From: Candidatus Kuenenia stuttgartensis
GTDB taxonomy: Bacteria; Planctomycetota; Planctomycetia; Pirellulales; UBA1268
Assembly: GCA_945891385.1 (NCBI GenBank)
Contig: CAMDDJ010000001.1
Span: 154,921-218,920 of the forward strand
DNA: 64,000 nucleotides
Direction: 5' to 3'
In this document: in pieces, positions 12,674-63,774 of the stretch
Position numbering within the stretch: position 1 is the first letter of the stretch
Layout: each line of letters starts with the position of its first letter
Position numbers and translations under genes: made by a program
The notes under the pieces: generated by a model
The model's input: the letters and a program-made list of their open reading frames with translations, nothing else
The model's database searches: none
Told to the model about the DNA's origin: nothing

Positions 12674-14902
12674 TCACTCAGGCAGTCGCGCGGCCTCCGG
12701 ATCGAGCAGCCGCCTGACCTCGGCCGGGTCGTTCGTGGGCGGATGGCAGGTCTCGCCGGTGCAGACGAAGGCCTGCGCGGGCTTCTCAGGGTCGGGCTTG
12801 CCGCCTGCGGCTCCCGCCTGGGGCACGAGCCGGGCGAGGGGTGAGAGTTGGGCGAGCCGTTCGTCGCCGTCGGCGAGGAGCAGGATCCAGTTCGTGGCTC
12901 GGCTCTTCCAGACCGCCTCCACGAGCGCCGCCGTGTCAGGGGCGGAGCGCCGGCCGGCGATCACGACGTGGGTCGCTGGGAGCGCGAGACGGTCGCGTTC
13001 CACGAGCAGGGCGAGGGCCGCGGTCGGGGTCTGGTCGATCCGGCCGCGAAGCGCGGCCACGAGCCGCTCGGCCCGCTCGAATCGGGCCGGCTCATCGAGG
13101 ATCACGGCCAGCCGGCGGAGGTTGGCCAGCGACACCGCGTTGGCCGAGGGCACGGCCTCGTCACGGTCGGGCTTGGGCCGCACGATCAGCAGGGAGTCGC
13201 CGGCCGGGGCGGCGAAGTAGCCGCCGGCCTCGTCGTCCCAGAGGAGCGCATCCTGCCGGTCTTGCAGGGCCACCGCCTGCGCGAGTCGATCGGGGTCGAA
13301 CGAGGCTTCGTAGAGGTCGAGCAGCCCGCGGATCAGAAACGCGTAGTCGTCGGCGAAGCCGCCGCGGAGCGGGCCATCGCCCTGACGGGCATGGCCGAGG
13401 CTGCCGTCGGGGCTGACGAGATCGCGGTGCATTCGATCGGCGGCCGCATCGGCAGCGTCGAGATAGGCCGGGTCGCCGAGCAGCTGGTAGCCGCGGGCGA
13501 GGGCCGAGATCATCAGCCCATTCGACGCGGTGATCAGCGTCGCGTCGACGGCGGGGCGGGGCCGATCGTCGCGGGCCGCCACGAGGAGCCGGCGGGAGTG
13601 TTCGAGTTCGGTGGCTGCTTCTGTCACCGAAAGGCCGAAGGCGGCAGCCGTCTCGGCGAGCGTGTGCCGCTCGAAGAGCACGCTGCCCCGAATCGCTTCA
13701 GTGGCCTCGGGGCCGTAGCGATCGCAGAAGCGGGCGGCCCGCTCGGCGTCCAGCACCTGCTCGATCTGGTCGCGGGTCCAGCGATAGAAGGCACCTTCCT
13801 CCGGCTCGGTCGCGGTCGAGTTCGGCAGGCTGTCGGCGTCGATTGCGGCGTGGAACCCGCCACCGGGCGCGGCGAGGTCCCGCAGGGCGGCGTCGAGCAG
13901 GCCGCGGGCTGTGGCCGCGAAGGCGGCGTCGTTCGTGGCCTGGAAGCCGCGCAGGTACGTCATCGCCAACTGGGCCTGATCGACCAGAAGCTGCTCAAAG
14001 TGCGGCTCCCGCCAGGCGGCGTCGGTCGCGTAGCGATGAAAGCCGCCACCAAGCTGATCGCGAATGCCCCCGGCCGCCATCGCCCGGAGCGTAGCCACGG
14101 CCATCGCCGCGGGTGCTCGGTCGCCGCCGTCGGCCGGCGGGGCGCCGGCGACATGAAAGAGAAACTCGACCGCGGCCGGGCGGGGAAACTTCGGCGGACC
14201 GCCGAAGCCCCCGTTCCGAGAATCGAATTCGGCCCGCAGGGTCTCGAGGGCGCGGGCATGCACCCCGGCCGAGTCGGACTCGTCTGTGCCCACGGGAGCC
14301 GCGAAGAGATTCGTGAGCGCCGCCCGCGTCTCCCGTCCGCTCGCCACGACTCCCGCGCGGTCCGTCGTCCAGGCCTCCACCACCTCCGCGAGCACCGTGC
14401 GGAACCCGGGCCGACCGGGCCGGTCGGCGGTGGCGAAGTAGGTGCCGCCCGCGAACGGTTCTCCGTCGGGCGTCAGCCAGACCGAAAGCGGCCAGCCTCC
14501 GCGGCCCGTCGTGGCCTGAACGAAGGTCATGTAGATCTGATCGACGTCGGGTCGCTCGTCGCGATCGACTTTGATGCAGACGAAATGCTCGTTGAGGTAG
14601 GCAGCCGTCTCAGGATCTCGGAACGATTCGCGAGCCATCACATGACACCAGTGGCAGCTCGAGAAGCCGATCGAGAGAAAGACCGGCTGGCCGCGGCGAC
14701 GTGCCGCGTCGAACGCCTCCGGTCCCCAGGGCTGCCAGTCCACCGGATCGTCGGCATGGTCGCGGAGGTAGGGCGATGGGGAGTCGGCGAGCCCGTTGCC
14801 GCCCCGCTCGGCGGCGACCGTCGGGGCCAGGCCTGCCAGGATCACCGCCGCGGCTACCAGCCAGGCGATCCCAATGCGAGGGCGAGACGACGAGGCAATC
14901 AT
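12674..14902 (-). CDS. DUF255 (YyaL/SSP411-like) thioredoxin-fold protein, exported
   Basis: 742 residues if it starts at the ATG at 14902, which gives a good signal peptide (PRIGIAWLVAAAVILAGLAP). The DUF255 domain follows at once: SPYLRDHADDPVDWQPWG, a thioredoxin-like CHWC in SSCHWCHVMARESF, VDRDERPDVDQIY and GGWPLSVWLTPDG. The rest is an alpha/alpha-barrel resembling N-acylglucosamine 2-epimerases (GGGFHRYATDA, DALLWDDEAGGYF). An in-frame ATG at 14950 would add 16 residues, but those codons fall in a repeat also found at 62466, and its GGAGGAG abuts the ATG with no spacing, so I reject it. YyaL relatives are usually cytosolic; an exported form is notable. Biochemical function is unclear. 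Confidence 0.9.
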   Translation of the reverse strand: MIASSSRPRIGIAWLVAAAVILAGLAPTVAAERGGNGLADSPSPYLRDHADDPVDWQPWGPEAFDAARRRGQPVFLSIGFSSCHWCHVMARESFRDPETAAYLNEHFVCIKVDRDERPDVDQIYMTFVQATTGRGGWPLSVWLTPDGEPFAGGTYFATADRPGRPGFRTVLAEVVEAWTTDRAGVVASGRETRAALTNLFAAPVGTDESDSAGVHARALETLRAEFDSRNGGFGGPPKFPRPAAVEFLFHVAGAPPADGGDRAPAAMAVATLRAMAAGGIRDQLGGGFHRYATDAAWREPHFEQLLVDQAQLAMTYLRGFQATNDAAFAATARGLLDAALRDLAAPGGGFHAAIDADSLPNSTATEPEEGAFYRWTRDQIEQVLDAERAARFCDRYGPEATEAIRGSVLFERHTLAETAAAFGLSVTEAATELEHSRRLLVAARDDRPRPAVDATLITASNGLMISALARGYQLLGDPAYLDAADAAADRMHRDLVSPDGSLGHARQGDGPLRGGFADDYAFLIRGLLDLYEASFDPDRLAQAVALQDRQDALLWDDEAGGYFAAPAGDSLLIVRPKPDRDEAVPSANAVSLANLRRLAVILDEPARFERAERLVAALRGRIDQTPTAALALLVERDRLALPATHVVIAGRRSAPDTAALVEAVWKSRATNWILLLADGDERLAQLSPLARLVPQAGAAGGKPDPEKPAQAFVCTGETCHPPTNDPAEVRRLLDPEAARLPE

Positions 14903-14917
14903 GAGCTGCAGGAGGCT

Positions 14918-14949
14918 CGGTTTCCTAGGCCGCTCGATTGGCACGGGCA
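14918..14949 (-). repeat. Dispersed 32-bp repeat, copy 1
   Basis: On the plus strand this reads CGGTTTCCTA, then G, then GCCGCTCGATTGGCACGGGC and A. It matches 62466–62497 at 31 of 32 positions. Weaker similarity continues outward past 14949. It lies 16 bases upstream of the preferred start of the minus-strand DUF255 gene; the other copy lies about 150 bases upstream of a minus-strand ALDH gene in the same relative orientation. Confidence 0.7.
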
Positions 14950-15053
14950 TCTCCTCCCACCATGGAAGTCCCGAACTTCCCCGAATGACCCGAGGGTGAA
15001 CGAGAGGTCCTCGGCGACGGGCCTTCCTGGTTGCTAAGATACCCGGCGGTTTC

Positions 15054-60849: not shown

Positions 60850-62313
60850 CTAGGACCGTGCCGCGAGGGCTTCCTGCCTGCCTGGCTCGCCTTTGCCGCG
60901 CGCCATCTGCAGCGCCCGGGAGCGGTACAGAAACTCGATGATGTTGCCCTCGTGCGGTTGGAGCCAGTCGAGCTTCGTGGTGGGCAGCGGCCCGAAGTTG
61001 AGCCGGTCGATCTGCGTGCAATCGATCAACTGCCGTTGGAAATCTTCGTCGTTCGTGATCGCCGTGCCGACGAGCGTGGGGCCGATGGCCTCGAGCATCT
61101 TCGCCTGGGAACATTCGACCACGCTCACGAACGGAAACATGTACTCTGCGCGGGCGATCTCGGGCTCTGGGCTCAAGCAGTGCGCGACGACGGGCCGCAG
61201 CCAGCCGCACCGCTCACCCTCCACGAACCGGTCGCCGTAATCGGCCGTGGCATGGCTCACGCCTGGGGCCGACAGGAGTCCATCGATCTGGCCCCAGATC
61301 GCCTTGGCCGCGCCAGGGATGGTGAACGCGGCGAGTTTGGCCTCGGGATCGTCGGGCGGTTTGACCTCGATCGGGCCGAGTCGCTCCGCCAACGCCGCGG
61401 CGATCTCGCGGGTGTGGCGGCTGGCGTAGATGGCGGAGGTGTTGATGCAGCCGCGGCCGCTGTTGATCGCCACGCTCTCCGCCATGATGTCGAGGTATTC
61501 CCGCCAGTCGTCCACGCAGTCGTCGCCGAGGATGATCTTGGAGAAGCCGGGGCCGTGGACCTGCACCTTCGGATTGCCCCGATACTGCTCGACGGTTTTG
61601 GCACTTCCGAAGATCATGCTTCGGCCGCAGCCGGTGAGCACGGCGGCGCCGACGTCGGTCGCTCCCGGGTAGAGGCCGATCGCTTCCGCGGGAATGCCCG
61701 CCTCGACCATGGCGGCCGCCATGCGGTAGGGCGTCCAGGGTTCCTGACTGCCCGGCTTCATCACGAGGCCCACGCCCAGGGCGACCACCGGCAGCCAGAG
61801 CGTGTGAACCCCGGGTGAGTTGGACGGGAGCACGAGCCCGAGCACGGGGGAGGCGGCCTGGTAACTGACCGTGACGCCGCGGTGTTCCACGCCGTAGCCC
61901 TGCCAGAGGATCTTCGGGTCGAGTCCTCGGGACAGGGCGTCGAGGATCCGATCCATGTTCGAGAGCACGAACATGTTCTTCTGCATGTTGGCCCGGCAGA
62001 GGCTTTCGGGCAGGCCGGTCGTGGCCGACTGCTGCTTGACGAAATCCTCGGGCGTTTGCCGCGAGTCGCCCACCGTGAGCGTGCCGTGGGCGTAGAGGTT
62101 CCCCGCCGTTTGCAGCCGCTCGACGATCTCCTCCGGGTCGATCGCGAGCAGCGCCCGGCGGGCCGCCGCGGCCGACTTCGCCAGATCGCGGCCGAGCATG
62201 GCCCCGCCCACCTGGCTCACCTCGGCGACGGGCTCGCCGGTCAGGAAATGCACGAGCGTATCCCGCTCGAGCGACTCATACGACTTGCCGAACCGCCAGG
62301 CTGGAAGATGCAT
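60850..62313 (-). CDS. Aldehyde dehydrogenase-family protein (possibly acyl-CoA or carboxylate reductase type)
   Basis: 487 residues from the ATG at 62313, which has GAGG at 8 bases. ALDH-fold features: LGLVLPSNSPGVHTLWLPVV, LVMKPGSQEPWTPYRMA, IFGSAKTVEQYRGNPKVQ, and the catalytic Cys in INSGRGCINTSAIYASRH. The usual general-base Glu region is not obvious (VHGPGFSKIILGDDC), and in this respect it resembles CoA-acylating aldehyde dehydrogenases and LuxC-like acyl reductases. With the Fe-ADH downstream and an acyl-activating ligase upstream, a carboxylate-to-aldehyde-to-alcohol route is a reasonable but unproven inference. Confidence 0.88.
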   Translation of the reverse strand: MHLPAWRFGKSYESLERDTLVHFLTGEPVAEVSQVGGAMLGRDLAKSAAAARRALLAIDPEEIVERLQTAGNLYAHGTLTVGDSRQTPEDFVKQQSATTGLPESLCRANMQKNMFVLSNMDRILDALSRGLDPKILWQGYGVEHRGVTVSYQAASPVLGLVLPSNSPGVHTLWLPVVALGVGLVMKPGSQEPWTPYRMAAAMVEAGIPAEAIGLYPGATDVGAAVLTGCGRSMIFGSAKTVEQYRGNPKVQVHGPGFSKIILGDDCVDDWREYLDIMAESVAINSGRGCINTSAIYASRHTREIAAALAERLGPIEVKPPDDPEAKLAAFTIPGAAKAIWGQIDGLLSAPGVSHATADYGDRFVEGERCGWLRPVVAHCLSPEPEIARAEYMFPFVSVVECSQAKMLEAIGPTLVGTAITNDEDFQRQLIDCTQIDRLNFGPLPTTKLDWLQPHEGNIIEFLYRSRALQMARGKGEPGRQEALAARS

Positions 62314-62465
62314 CGGTGTTCCCTCGCGTGTGGATAAATGCAGATTGTGTGGCAGGCCCGCAGAGAAGGCCGGGGATGCCCGTGCCATCTCGTCGGACGT
62401 TCGTTGCGGGCATCCTGCCCTTTACTCACTCGGAGGAAACCTCACTTCGCAATCCTTGCTGCGTT

Positions 62466-62497
62466 CGGTTTCCTACGCCGCTCGATTGGCACGGGCA
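62466..62497 (-). repeat. Dispersed 32-bp repeat, copy 2
   Basis: Matches 14918–14949 at 31 of 32 positions in the same orientation. Here the repeat also forms part of a potential stem: AGGAAACC at 62435–62442 and GGTTTCCT at 62467–62474 are perfect complements, enclosing an inner GCAA/TTGC pair. It sits about 150 bases upstream of the minus-strand ALDH start. Confidence 0.7.
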
Positions 62498-62606
62498 ACC
62501 CCTCCATACCTTGAAATCAGGGCAACGAATCATGATCGATGACAGCCGGGCAGGAAGCCCGGCGAGGCGAACGAAGGCGACCGTGGCTCGCCCTCCGTTC
62601 GCCCAA

Positions 62607-62637
62607 GGCTGCAGGGGCCATGGATGGCCCTGCAGCC
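62607..62637 (-). terminator. Strong hairpin after the ligase stop codon
   Basis: GGCTGCAGGG(G)CCAT pairs with ATGGCCCTGCAGCC with one bulged G and a very small loop. On the minus strand it begins 6 bases after the TAG of the ligase gene. There is no U tract, so it may serve as a 3'-end stabiliser or a factor-assisted terminator. Confidence 0.45.
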
Positions 62638-62643
62638 CTAGAG

Positions 62644-63774
62644 CTAGTAGACCCCAACGGTCGTGGTTGCGGCGAGCTGGCGGAAGGGGCGAACGCCGCT
62701 GATCCCGTCCCAGGGATACGCGACGTAGGGCCGTTCCCGTTCGCCCTCGTCTCGCTCGAGGAATCCCGGAATGAAGGTCTCCTTGGTGAGCGTGGTCAGC
62801 CGGACGCGGCCGGTGCCGCCGTAGGGCACCACGGCGTCACGGTCGTCGAAGTCCACGACCTCGATCACGGCTCGTGGCTGCGGAGCATAGTAGGCGATTG
62901 TGTATCCGTCGGCGGGCACGACTGGCCGGGAGGCGGCCAGTCCCATCAGGGTGTTGCCGTAGGTCGGGGTCATGTAGGCGCCGTCGAGCAGTTCTTCCAC
63001 GGCGAACCGGGTCCACTGTGGCGTGAACTCGGTGCCGCCGGAGAAGATCCCTGTGATCCCCGCCTGGCGGAGCGTCGTGCCCTTCTTTTCCAGAGCGAGA
63101 GCCAGGGCTTCGAGCAGCTTCGGCGTCGTAAACATGCAGCGGATGTCGTGGCCCGCCTCCAGGATCGTGATCGCCTGGTCGATGCAGTGCTGCTTGTAGG
63201 CCTCCAGGTGCTCCATCCAGCCCTTCTGGATCAGCTTGATCACCCAGCGGGGGTCGAGGTCGACGCAGAAGCAGATGCCGCCCCGATACTGGGCGAGGTG
63301 TTCGATCGAGAGCCGCAGCCGGCGGGGGCCGGAGGGACCGAGCATCAGCCAGTTGGCCCCCCGCGGAAAAAACTCCTCGGGGAGCGTGTCGCTGAACATC
63401 TCGTAGTCGGTGCGGAAGTCGCGGGAGTTGTAACGCGACTTTGGCGTACCCGTCGTGCCGCCAGTCTCGAACACGTAGGCCGGCTGGTCGGCCAGACCTT
63501 TCGGCACCCAGCGGCGGACCGGCCCGCCCCGGAGCCACTCGTCCTCAAACGGCGGAAACTTCTTGAGGTCGTCGAAGCCCTTCACCTCCTTCAGGGGATC
63601 GAAGGAGAGTGATTTCGCGTAGTCGAGCCAGAAGGGGCAGCCGGTGGACTCGTGGAAGTGCCAGGCGACCATCTCGACGGTGTGGGCATCGAGGATGCCG
63701 CGGGCATGAGCGATCTGATCCGGACTCGCGAGTTCGAAGACCGGGGGCGTGGCGGCGGTCGTTTGGATGGTCAT
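62644..63774 (-). CDS. AMP-forming acyl-activating protein (PaaK/LuxE-like)
   Basis: 376 residues, shorter than full acyl-CoA ligases (over 500) and close to LuxE-type acyl-protein synthetases. The nucleotide loop is VFETGGTTGTPKSRYNSRDF. GIFSGGTEFTPQWTRFAVEE and PTYGNTLMGLAAS follow, and near the C-terminus VPYGGTGRVRLTTLTKETFIPGF corresponds to the adenylate-binding GxGRxxL region. The usual C-terminal lid domain is small or missing. It probably activates a carboxylate as an acyl-adenylate and passes it to a thiol. The ALDH gene lies 330 bases downstream on the same strand; a LuxE-LuxC-like partnership is inferred. The substrate is not evident. Confidence 0.82.
   Translation of the reverse strand: MTIQTTAATPPVFELASPDQIAHARGILDAHTVEMVAWHFHESTGCPFWLDYAKSLSFDPLKEVKGFDDLKKFPPFEDEWLRGGPVRRWVPKGLADQPAYVFETGGTTGTPKSRYNSRDFRTDYEMFSDTLPEEFFPRGANWLMLGPSGPRRLRLSIEHLAQYRGGICFCVDLDPRWVIKLIQKGWMEHLEAYKQHCIDQAITILEAGHDIRCMFTTPKLLEALALALEKKGTTLRQAGITGIFSGGTEFTPQWTRFAVEELLDGAYMTPTYGNTLMGLAASRPVVPADGYTIAYYAPQPRAVIEVVDFDDRDAVVPYGGTGRVRLTTLTKETFIPGFLERDEGERERPYVAYPWDGISGVRPFRQLAATTTVGVY

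Follow-up and report, generated by a model that had tools for sequence, protein, structure and literature searches.

The window analyzed here, a stretch of 64,000 nucleotides, corresponds to C1:154921-218920 of a 3.77-Mb draft genome in 150 contigs (the own genome, G000). It carries two copies of a 32-bp repeat, at 14918-14949 and 62466-62497, both on the + strand and distinguished by a single mismatch (G/C at the 11th letter), exactly as the preliminary description had reported. The likeness between copy 1 and copy 2 reaches 54 nt at 83% (14917-14970 / 62465-62518; family D6). The 19-mer GCCGCTCGATTGGCACGGG was found at 2 sites of the window when up to 3 mismatches were allowed, for a shuffle mean of 0.12, and none of the 100 shuffles reached 2.

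Pfam matches confirmed that the two copies lie upstream of minus-strand genes, encoding a DUF255 protein (PF03190) and an aldehyde dehydrogenase (ALDH, PF00171), respectively (Table 1). Copy 2 occupies the interval between the ALDH start, of which it is upstream, and the 3′ end of an AMP-binding-family gene, while copy 1 sits just upstream of the likely DUF255 start, which was placed by eye at ATG 14902 and by the codon model at 14845. An in-frame ATG upstream of 14902 falls within copy 1 (14918-14956), so that an automatic call of the DUF255 start could be too long. The repeat thus explains a misleading upstream start codon, as had been suggested.

The repeat at copy 2 had also been read as one arm of a stem enclosing an inner hairpin. 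Both stem and hairpin are real, but this reading was incomplete, as the whole is a three-armed fold whose left arm starts near 62370 and in which the 32-bp repeat represents the 3′ strand of inner hairpin 2 together with most of the right outer arm. Concerning copy 1, no left half was found upstream, and a search of the window with R1, a covariance model made from 19 own copies, returned copy 2 only. When the DUF255/FG-GAP region was searched in the genus, it matched a 252-nt stretch in a single genome (G013), besides the repeat and short fragments. Because so little of this region was matched, copy 1 was not comparable across the genus.

Table 1. Coordinates of the element copies, their parts and the neighbouring genes in the window.
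Feature	Positions	Strand	Evidence
DUF255/thioredoxin-like gene	12674..14902	-	PF03190, E 3.4e-70; likely start ATG 14902, by eye
Right-half remnant, copy 1	14917..14970	+	83%/54 nt to copy 2; contains 14918-14949
ALDH gene	60850..62313	-	PF00171, E 8.8e-19; start from codon model
Complete element, copy 2	62370..62504	+ (model orientation)	R1 match 159.8 bits, E 1.6e-31; alignments A1/A2
Left outer arm (terminal inverted repeat), copy 2	62372..62387	+	pairs with 62487-62502
Inner hairpin 1, copy 2 (GGGCATCCTGCCC)	62408..62420	+	A5 helix 4: two-sided changes in 3/4 pairs
Inner hairpin 2, copy 2 (AGGAAACC ... GGTTTCCT)	62434..62474	+	A5 helix 5: two-sided changes in 8/10 pairs
32-bp repeat, copy 2	62466..62497	+	sequence match to copy 1
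Right outer arm (terminal inverted repeat), copy 2	62487..62502	+	structure counts
Separate hairpin beside stop of AMP-binding gene	62607..62637	.	by eye
AMP-binding-family gene	62644..63774	-	PF00501, E 1.9e-7, 30.6 bits vs cut-off 29.9

By eye, a hairpin centred on a GGCCATGGATGGCC-like sequence appeared to lie directly after the stop of the element-facing gene in the window and at L087, L121, L123, L131, L134 and L149. Similar stop-side hairpins were present in the right flanks of other copies and, in some other genomes, at the orthologous ALDH/AMP-binding site. Within the window, this motif was no commoner than in shuffles.

Anatomy and compensated fold of the element

The core of the element spans about 135 nt and consists of 16-nt inverted-repeat ends placed around two inner hairpins, which together form the three-armed fold. 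In subfamily 1, the 16-nt outer arms are GGAGTTGCCCGTGCCA and TGGCACGGGCAACTCC. The fold was taken from an RNAalifold structure, to which two outer-stem pairs were added by hand before modelling. Folded as RNA with short flanks, copy 2 gave z scores of -5.6 and -5.5 on the two strands; alone and folded as DNA, it gave -6.6 on either strand.

The covariance analysis of the stem, which the preliminary description had put forward as a check, was performed on several alignments. In A2 (19 own copies), 95.7% of the pair cells were standard and 12 of the 43 pairs showed a two-sided change; four of the five measures, including the covariation score, exceeded all 500 shuffles, and the number of pair types was reached by 12 of them. 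In A5 (78 copies, of which 20 are own, 5 come from other genera and the remainder from the genus), 97.3% of the cells were paired, two-sided changes affected 25 of the 43 pairs, and no shuffle out of 500 matched the alignment on any of the five measures. The A5 covariation score was 0.225, against 0.074 in shuffles and 0.029-0.043 with the partner slid. Fitting to the model makes the counts of A5 and A6 lean towards the structure; A1 and A2 were made without such fitting.

Own subfamily 2 has different arms and other sequences over the entire inner stem 2 (by eye, e.g., GAGGAAACC/GGTTTCCTA, GATGCAGAC/GTCTGCATA and GAGAGAACT/GGTTCTCTA). The three-armed fold is thus kept through compensatory changes while the letters differ. 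Subfamily 2 also sits inside longer repeats, with conserved flanks and more hairpins to the right, and at some sites the left half of the element occurs in tandem at 73-78 bp spacing (L371 on C13, L372 on C25). With such shared flanks and longer repeats, the 135 nt may be just part of the unit in this subfamily.

DNA replication can correct quasi-palindromes through template switching, and the complementarity of the arms could come solely from such correction, the fold then having no function. Two-sided changes present in the outer stem and in both inner hairpins of A5, as well as the replacement of whole inner stems, are compatible with this process. By itself, it leaves the dispersal of the element, the empty sites and the strand asymmetry of the outer stem (see below) unexplained, and we regard it as an unlikely account of the family.

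Copy number, spread and siting

A search of the own genome and of its relatives, also proposed at the outset, found more than the two window copies in the former and further copies in the latter. Over the whole own genome, the 19-mer gave 37 matches with no more than 3 mismatches: 8 were exact, and 13, 2 and 14 had one, two and three mismatches, respectively. The reversed pattern gave 2, and many of the three-mismatch matches look like background. Among the 23 matches at up to 2 mismatches, 19 were the right end of an element of about 135 nt and provided the copies for R1, and the other 4, including copy 1, had no left half. The other right-only copies are L014, L016 and L023, and left-only copies were found on C10 and C21. 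With R1, the own genome yielded at least 93 matches at E<1e-6 and 105 at E≤0.1 (150 candidates scored), some of them partial at contig ends. A number of matches in this genome fall no more than a few hundred bases from a contig end, as expected if repeats break assemblies, and the repeat may account for some of the assembly breaks.

All 22 genomes of the genus contained R1 matches (4-143 per genome), as did 63 of the 72 genomes of the family, in 11 of 12 genera. In an order-wide sample, 32 of 196 genomes had matches and all 32 belonged to the family of the window; the 160 genomes sampled from the order's other families were without the element (16 among those listed, the others by subtraction). 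Within the genomes sampled, the element is therefore restricted to one family. Also, a 31-letter pattern was found in at least 116 stretches of named genomes; the 80 matches listed were all, by title, from planctomycete MAGs, some of them labelled "Kuenenia" or "Planctomicrobium".

These counts bear on the simplest reading of the two window copies, namely a chance repeat or the binding site of one regulator upstream of two genes. Although both copies do lie upstream of minus-strand genes, the 37 genomic matches against 2 for the reversed pattern, together with full elements of about 135 nt in intergenic contexts of every kind, refute this reading as a full explanation, and we consider it extremely improbable. 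A plain regulator-binding site, one of three options initially offered for the repeat, does not agree either with a unit of about 135 nt in which pairing is kept while letters change.

The copies are intergenic. Overlap with a predicted gene never exceeded 30 nt in 71 own rows, 60 relative rows and 66 rows of a second set, and predicted intergenic DNA makes up 7.6% of the window; the genes were called with a simple codon model rather than a standard gene finder. The 71 own rows came from 70 sources among the 93 own matches at E<1e-6 (one row is weak), and some of the rows are second matches within a locus. The second set comprised nine genomes, six of them from other genera and three (G008, G009 and G012) from the window's genus; its rows were picked from the listed matches of lower score, and 63 of the 66 were used for stem counts.

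Orthologous sites

The site between the ALDH and AMP-binding genes could be read across in 14 of the 22 genomes of the genus and was not readable in 8. Elements were present in 5 of these 14: one in G000, one in G010, unlike that of G000 in sequence, and two in each of G008, G011 and G016, in opposite orientation. The two genes overlap by one base in G006 and G020 and are separated by 2 bp in G003; six more genomes have a gap of 25-857 bp filled with other sequence, without any R1 match. The 857-bp gap (G002, L331) appears to contain a whole small gene in place of the element.

Empty sites were sought in four genomes; the queries were the two flanks, joined, of each of 11 copies taken from two relatives. 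Alignments were made for five comparisons at four sites, of which three were interpretable, L452/L467 giving no clear alignment. G014 carries an element at the L193 site, which stands empty in G016. The two differ by about 190 nt, more than the core of 135 nt, and the real unit may therefore be longer. At another site, G014 has a full element, G012 a left-half remnant and G011 none. A further site is occupied in G008 by the element and in G011 by another hairpin repeat. Orthologous sites are thus variously filled, empty, half-filled or occupied by another subfamily, and on these sequence comparisons the element family is probably mobile. Absence at a given site could result from deletion, and the assemblies are draft genomes.

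The half copy in G012 supports the reading of window copy 1 as a decayed element. The earlier suggestion that the repeat might be the remains of a structured RNA stands in part: copy 1 is the remnant of a structured element, which may act as RNA or as single-stranded DNA.

The flanks of near-identical copies, whose alignment had been recommended, were compared as well. In G006, the 60-nt flanks of copy pairs that are 95.6-96.3% identical were 0.46-0.57 alike, for 0.48 in random 60-mers, with the exception of one 97.0% pair (flanks 0.79 and 0.60). The most similar pairs of the own genome (95.7-97.8%) belong to subfamily 2 and had flanks 0.49-0.77 alike, above random, as expected from the shared flanks of this subfamily. 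Among the three options, a mobile hairpin element is therefore the best supported, by the dispersed copies, the filled and empty sites and the unlike flanks in G006.

Folding strand, candidate movers and known systems

The outer stem is asymmetric between strands. In 47 own subfamily-2 copies, it contained 61 A.C cells for 7 G.U cells, two stem positions accounting for 42 of these A.C cells. The counts for 63 copies in nine other family genomes were 37 and 5, A.C being in excess in all 8 of the nine genomes that had any such cell; as copies are related, stem cells are not independent. An A.C on the model strand is a G.U on the other, so that the R1-minus strand may be the folding strand. The asymmetry is weaker over the whole structure, where A.C and G.U numbered 17/8 in own subfamily 1, 67/34 in own subfamily 2, 32/24 in relatives, and 53 and 33 in the 78-copy set (antisense matches and a few named rows are omitted from the whole-structure counts of the own subfamilies and relatives and from the outer-stem count of the 47 copies). 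Among paired columns, the rates of G>A and C>T were similar in three sets (p 0.37, 0.30 and 0.58). In unpaired columns, G>A exceeded C>T, with 24/156 vs 38/1475 (p 2.6e-10) in one set, 11/330 vs 16/759 (p 0.29) and 8/169 vs 24/1116 (p 0.059) in the other two, and a mutation bias between strands is thus a possible source of the asymmetry. The asymmetry hints at one folding strand, as RNA or single-stranded DNA, and serves as a lead.

A structured RNA kept for its function, with spread being secondary, is a possible but doubtful alternative. The R1-minus strand would then act in the mRNA as a 3′-UTR or intercistronic stabiliser or end-former. In own subfamily 2, 40 of 46 right-hand genes have their 3′ end towards the element (p 3e-7), as do 26 of 49 left-hand genes, and such right-hand 3′ positions are shared with structured cis-RNAs of Rfam, as are the compensatory base changes, found here throughout the structure; the A.C excess of the outer stem, read as G.U on the minus strand, goes the same way. 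However, neither orientation is preferred in own subfamily 1 (right-hand gene 10/19, left-hand gene 8/20), and in the nine-genome set it is the left-hand gene that faces in (43/63; right-hand gene 35/62), so that the plus strand would be transcribed. Gene and strand context thus varies across subfamilies, as it does not in the cis-RNAs, and the limits of the asymmetry given above (weaker over the whole structure, concentrated in two positions, and open to mutation bias) also weigh against this alternative. No Rfam family matched the window at gathering score. At relaxed thresholds, nothing was found over the element in the six loci scanned, and the three sub-threshold matches in the copy-2 region were all beside it. 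An unrelated cobalamin riboswitch (RF00174, 69.2 bits, L130:49-306) was detected in the flank of an element copy, in this locus only. PMC2864571 names a Rhodopirellula-1 RNA motif, without an Rfam number.

In integron attC sites, it is one DNA strand that folds, and its shape is conserved rather than its letters. The element shares this conservation of shape over letters, but its copies stand single or paired between unrelated genes and not in cassette arrays. The R1-minus strand might be the working form as self-folding single-stranded DNA, copied or inserted by an enzyme other than Y1/RAYT, with selection on the fold, rather than on duplex repeats, maintaining the arms; we put this forward as a rather speculative proposal. 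If it were true, one bacterial family would have retained, while its genera diverged, a mobile element that is recognised by shape and exists in many sequence subfamilies at once.

Movement of REP/REPIN elements by RAYT, a Y1 tyrosine transposase, was considered as well. REPs are known in Planctomycetes, with intergenic, downstream placement (PMC3733652), and accounts of REPs and REPINs (PMC3733652, PMC3116915) describe extragenic palindromes, inverted pairs of units and variant groups, REP singlets being regarded as defunct remnants. All these features are shared by the element, the singlets resembling the half copies found here, and its intergenic palindromes often stand in co-directional or convergent contexts as reported for REPs (PMC3733652). 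In some copies, the foot of hairpin 2 also reads GTAG on the minus strand, and PF01797 (Y1/RAYT) occurs in 26 of the 72 family genomes, including the high-copy relatives G016 (143 matches) and G008 (122). However, other own copies have GTAT, GTTG or CTAG at this foot (by eye), so that the GTAG/CGTC tag is not conserved, and the unit is about 135 nt long and not a palindrome of 20-40 bp. PF01797 was found neither in the own genome nor in G006, G009, G012, G014 and G020, five relatives with 89-138 element matches each (assemblies 75-97% complete), and the 20 Y1 loci searched (about 3 kb each, out of 36 Y1 matches) contained no element, the sole match there having E 0.84. RAYT-driven movement is therefore not supported, and we hold it to be improbable.

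According to PMC2229807, the bacterial MITEs ERIC, RUP, Correia/NEMIS and YPAL are about 100-200 bp long, bear terminal inverted repeats and are mostly intergenic; MITE transcripts are predicted to fold strongly, YPAL sites are found both filled and empty, and most of the MITEs tabulated have TA termini and target duplications. The element resembles them in size, in its mostly intergenic siting and strong fold, in its terminal inverted repeats (16-nt arms for a core of about 135 nt), and in its presence or absence at orthologous sites (ALDH 5/14; L193, G014 vs G016), as for YPAL. It differs in having no TA termini at the ends that were read, in being G+C-rich where MITEs are A+T-rich, and in its three arms with compensatory replacement of whole stems. 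Target-site duplication, searched in 65 copies with 30 permutations, gave no convincing case; the top signals (a shared 4-mer in 22 copies for 11.5 expected, a 2-mer in 26 for 13) look like subfamily-linked ends, and the insertion boundary in the G014/G016 pair is ambiguous.

No donor IS was found. In the own genome, the left-end pattern gave 155 matches, and those listed included no autonomous relative with the same ends. A scan for end pairs in 401 fetched loci gave nine candidates, of which six, read by eye, looked like ordinary genes, copies lying next to each other or an inverted pair, with no transposase recognised among them; the other three candidates were L369, a half copy, L344 and L302. 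Within the literature searched, no description of this repeat family was found; in its passages on intergenic DNA, repeats and transposases, an account of freshwater planctomycete genomes mentions no such elements (PMC6461901).

Taken together, the copies constitute a real and abundant family of three-armed palindromic elements, restricted to one lineage and most likely mobile and non-autonomous. In our favoured reading, which we consider likely, they are mobile DNA elements of a MITE-like or REPIN-like kind that depend on functions encoded elsewhere, with a core of about 135 nt that folds into three arms as a single strand. Movement itself is what we infer from the distribution of the copies. 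An enzyme encoded elsewhere would recognise the folded strand and copy the element into intergenic DNA, active master copies would spread new variants, and old copies would decay to halves, window copy 1 being an example. Where transcription runs through an element, a stable RNA structure would form between genes and may protect or separate transcripts. Bacteria commonly carry short palindromic repeats, and the movers of many are unsettled. With its many copies, several subfamilies, strong covariation, varied sites and several high-copy genomes devoid of Y1, this family constitutes a rich natural experiment, and it could tell whether such elements persist as DNA shapes or as RNA shapes.

Other repeats were observed beside the element. 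A second dispersed palindromic repeat (GCGAGCGTTCGCCGACCCCCGAGCC ... GGCTCGGGGGCGGCAAAAGTCGCGTCGCGGGCG) lies, whole or partial, next to L001, L005, L009, L010, L013, L018 and L021 (by eye), and also in the right flank of L154. The slot in G011 opposite the G008 element is occupied by the hairpin repeat GGCCCGTTGCTCCGCAAC... (L470; L453 flank). Pieces of the flanks of L453, L456 and L193 match many places in G011, G016 or G005 and, with the G011 hairpin repeat, indicate that further dispersed repeats exist.
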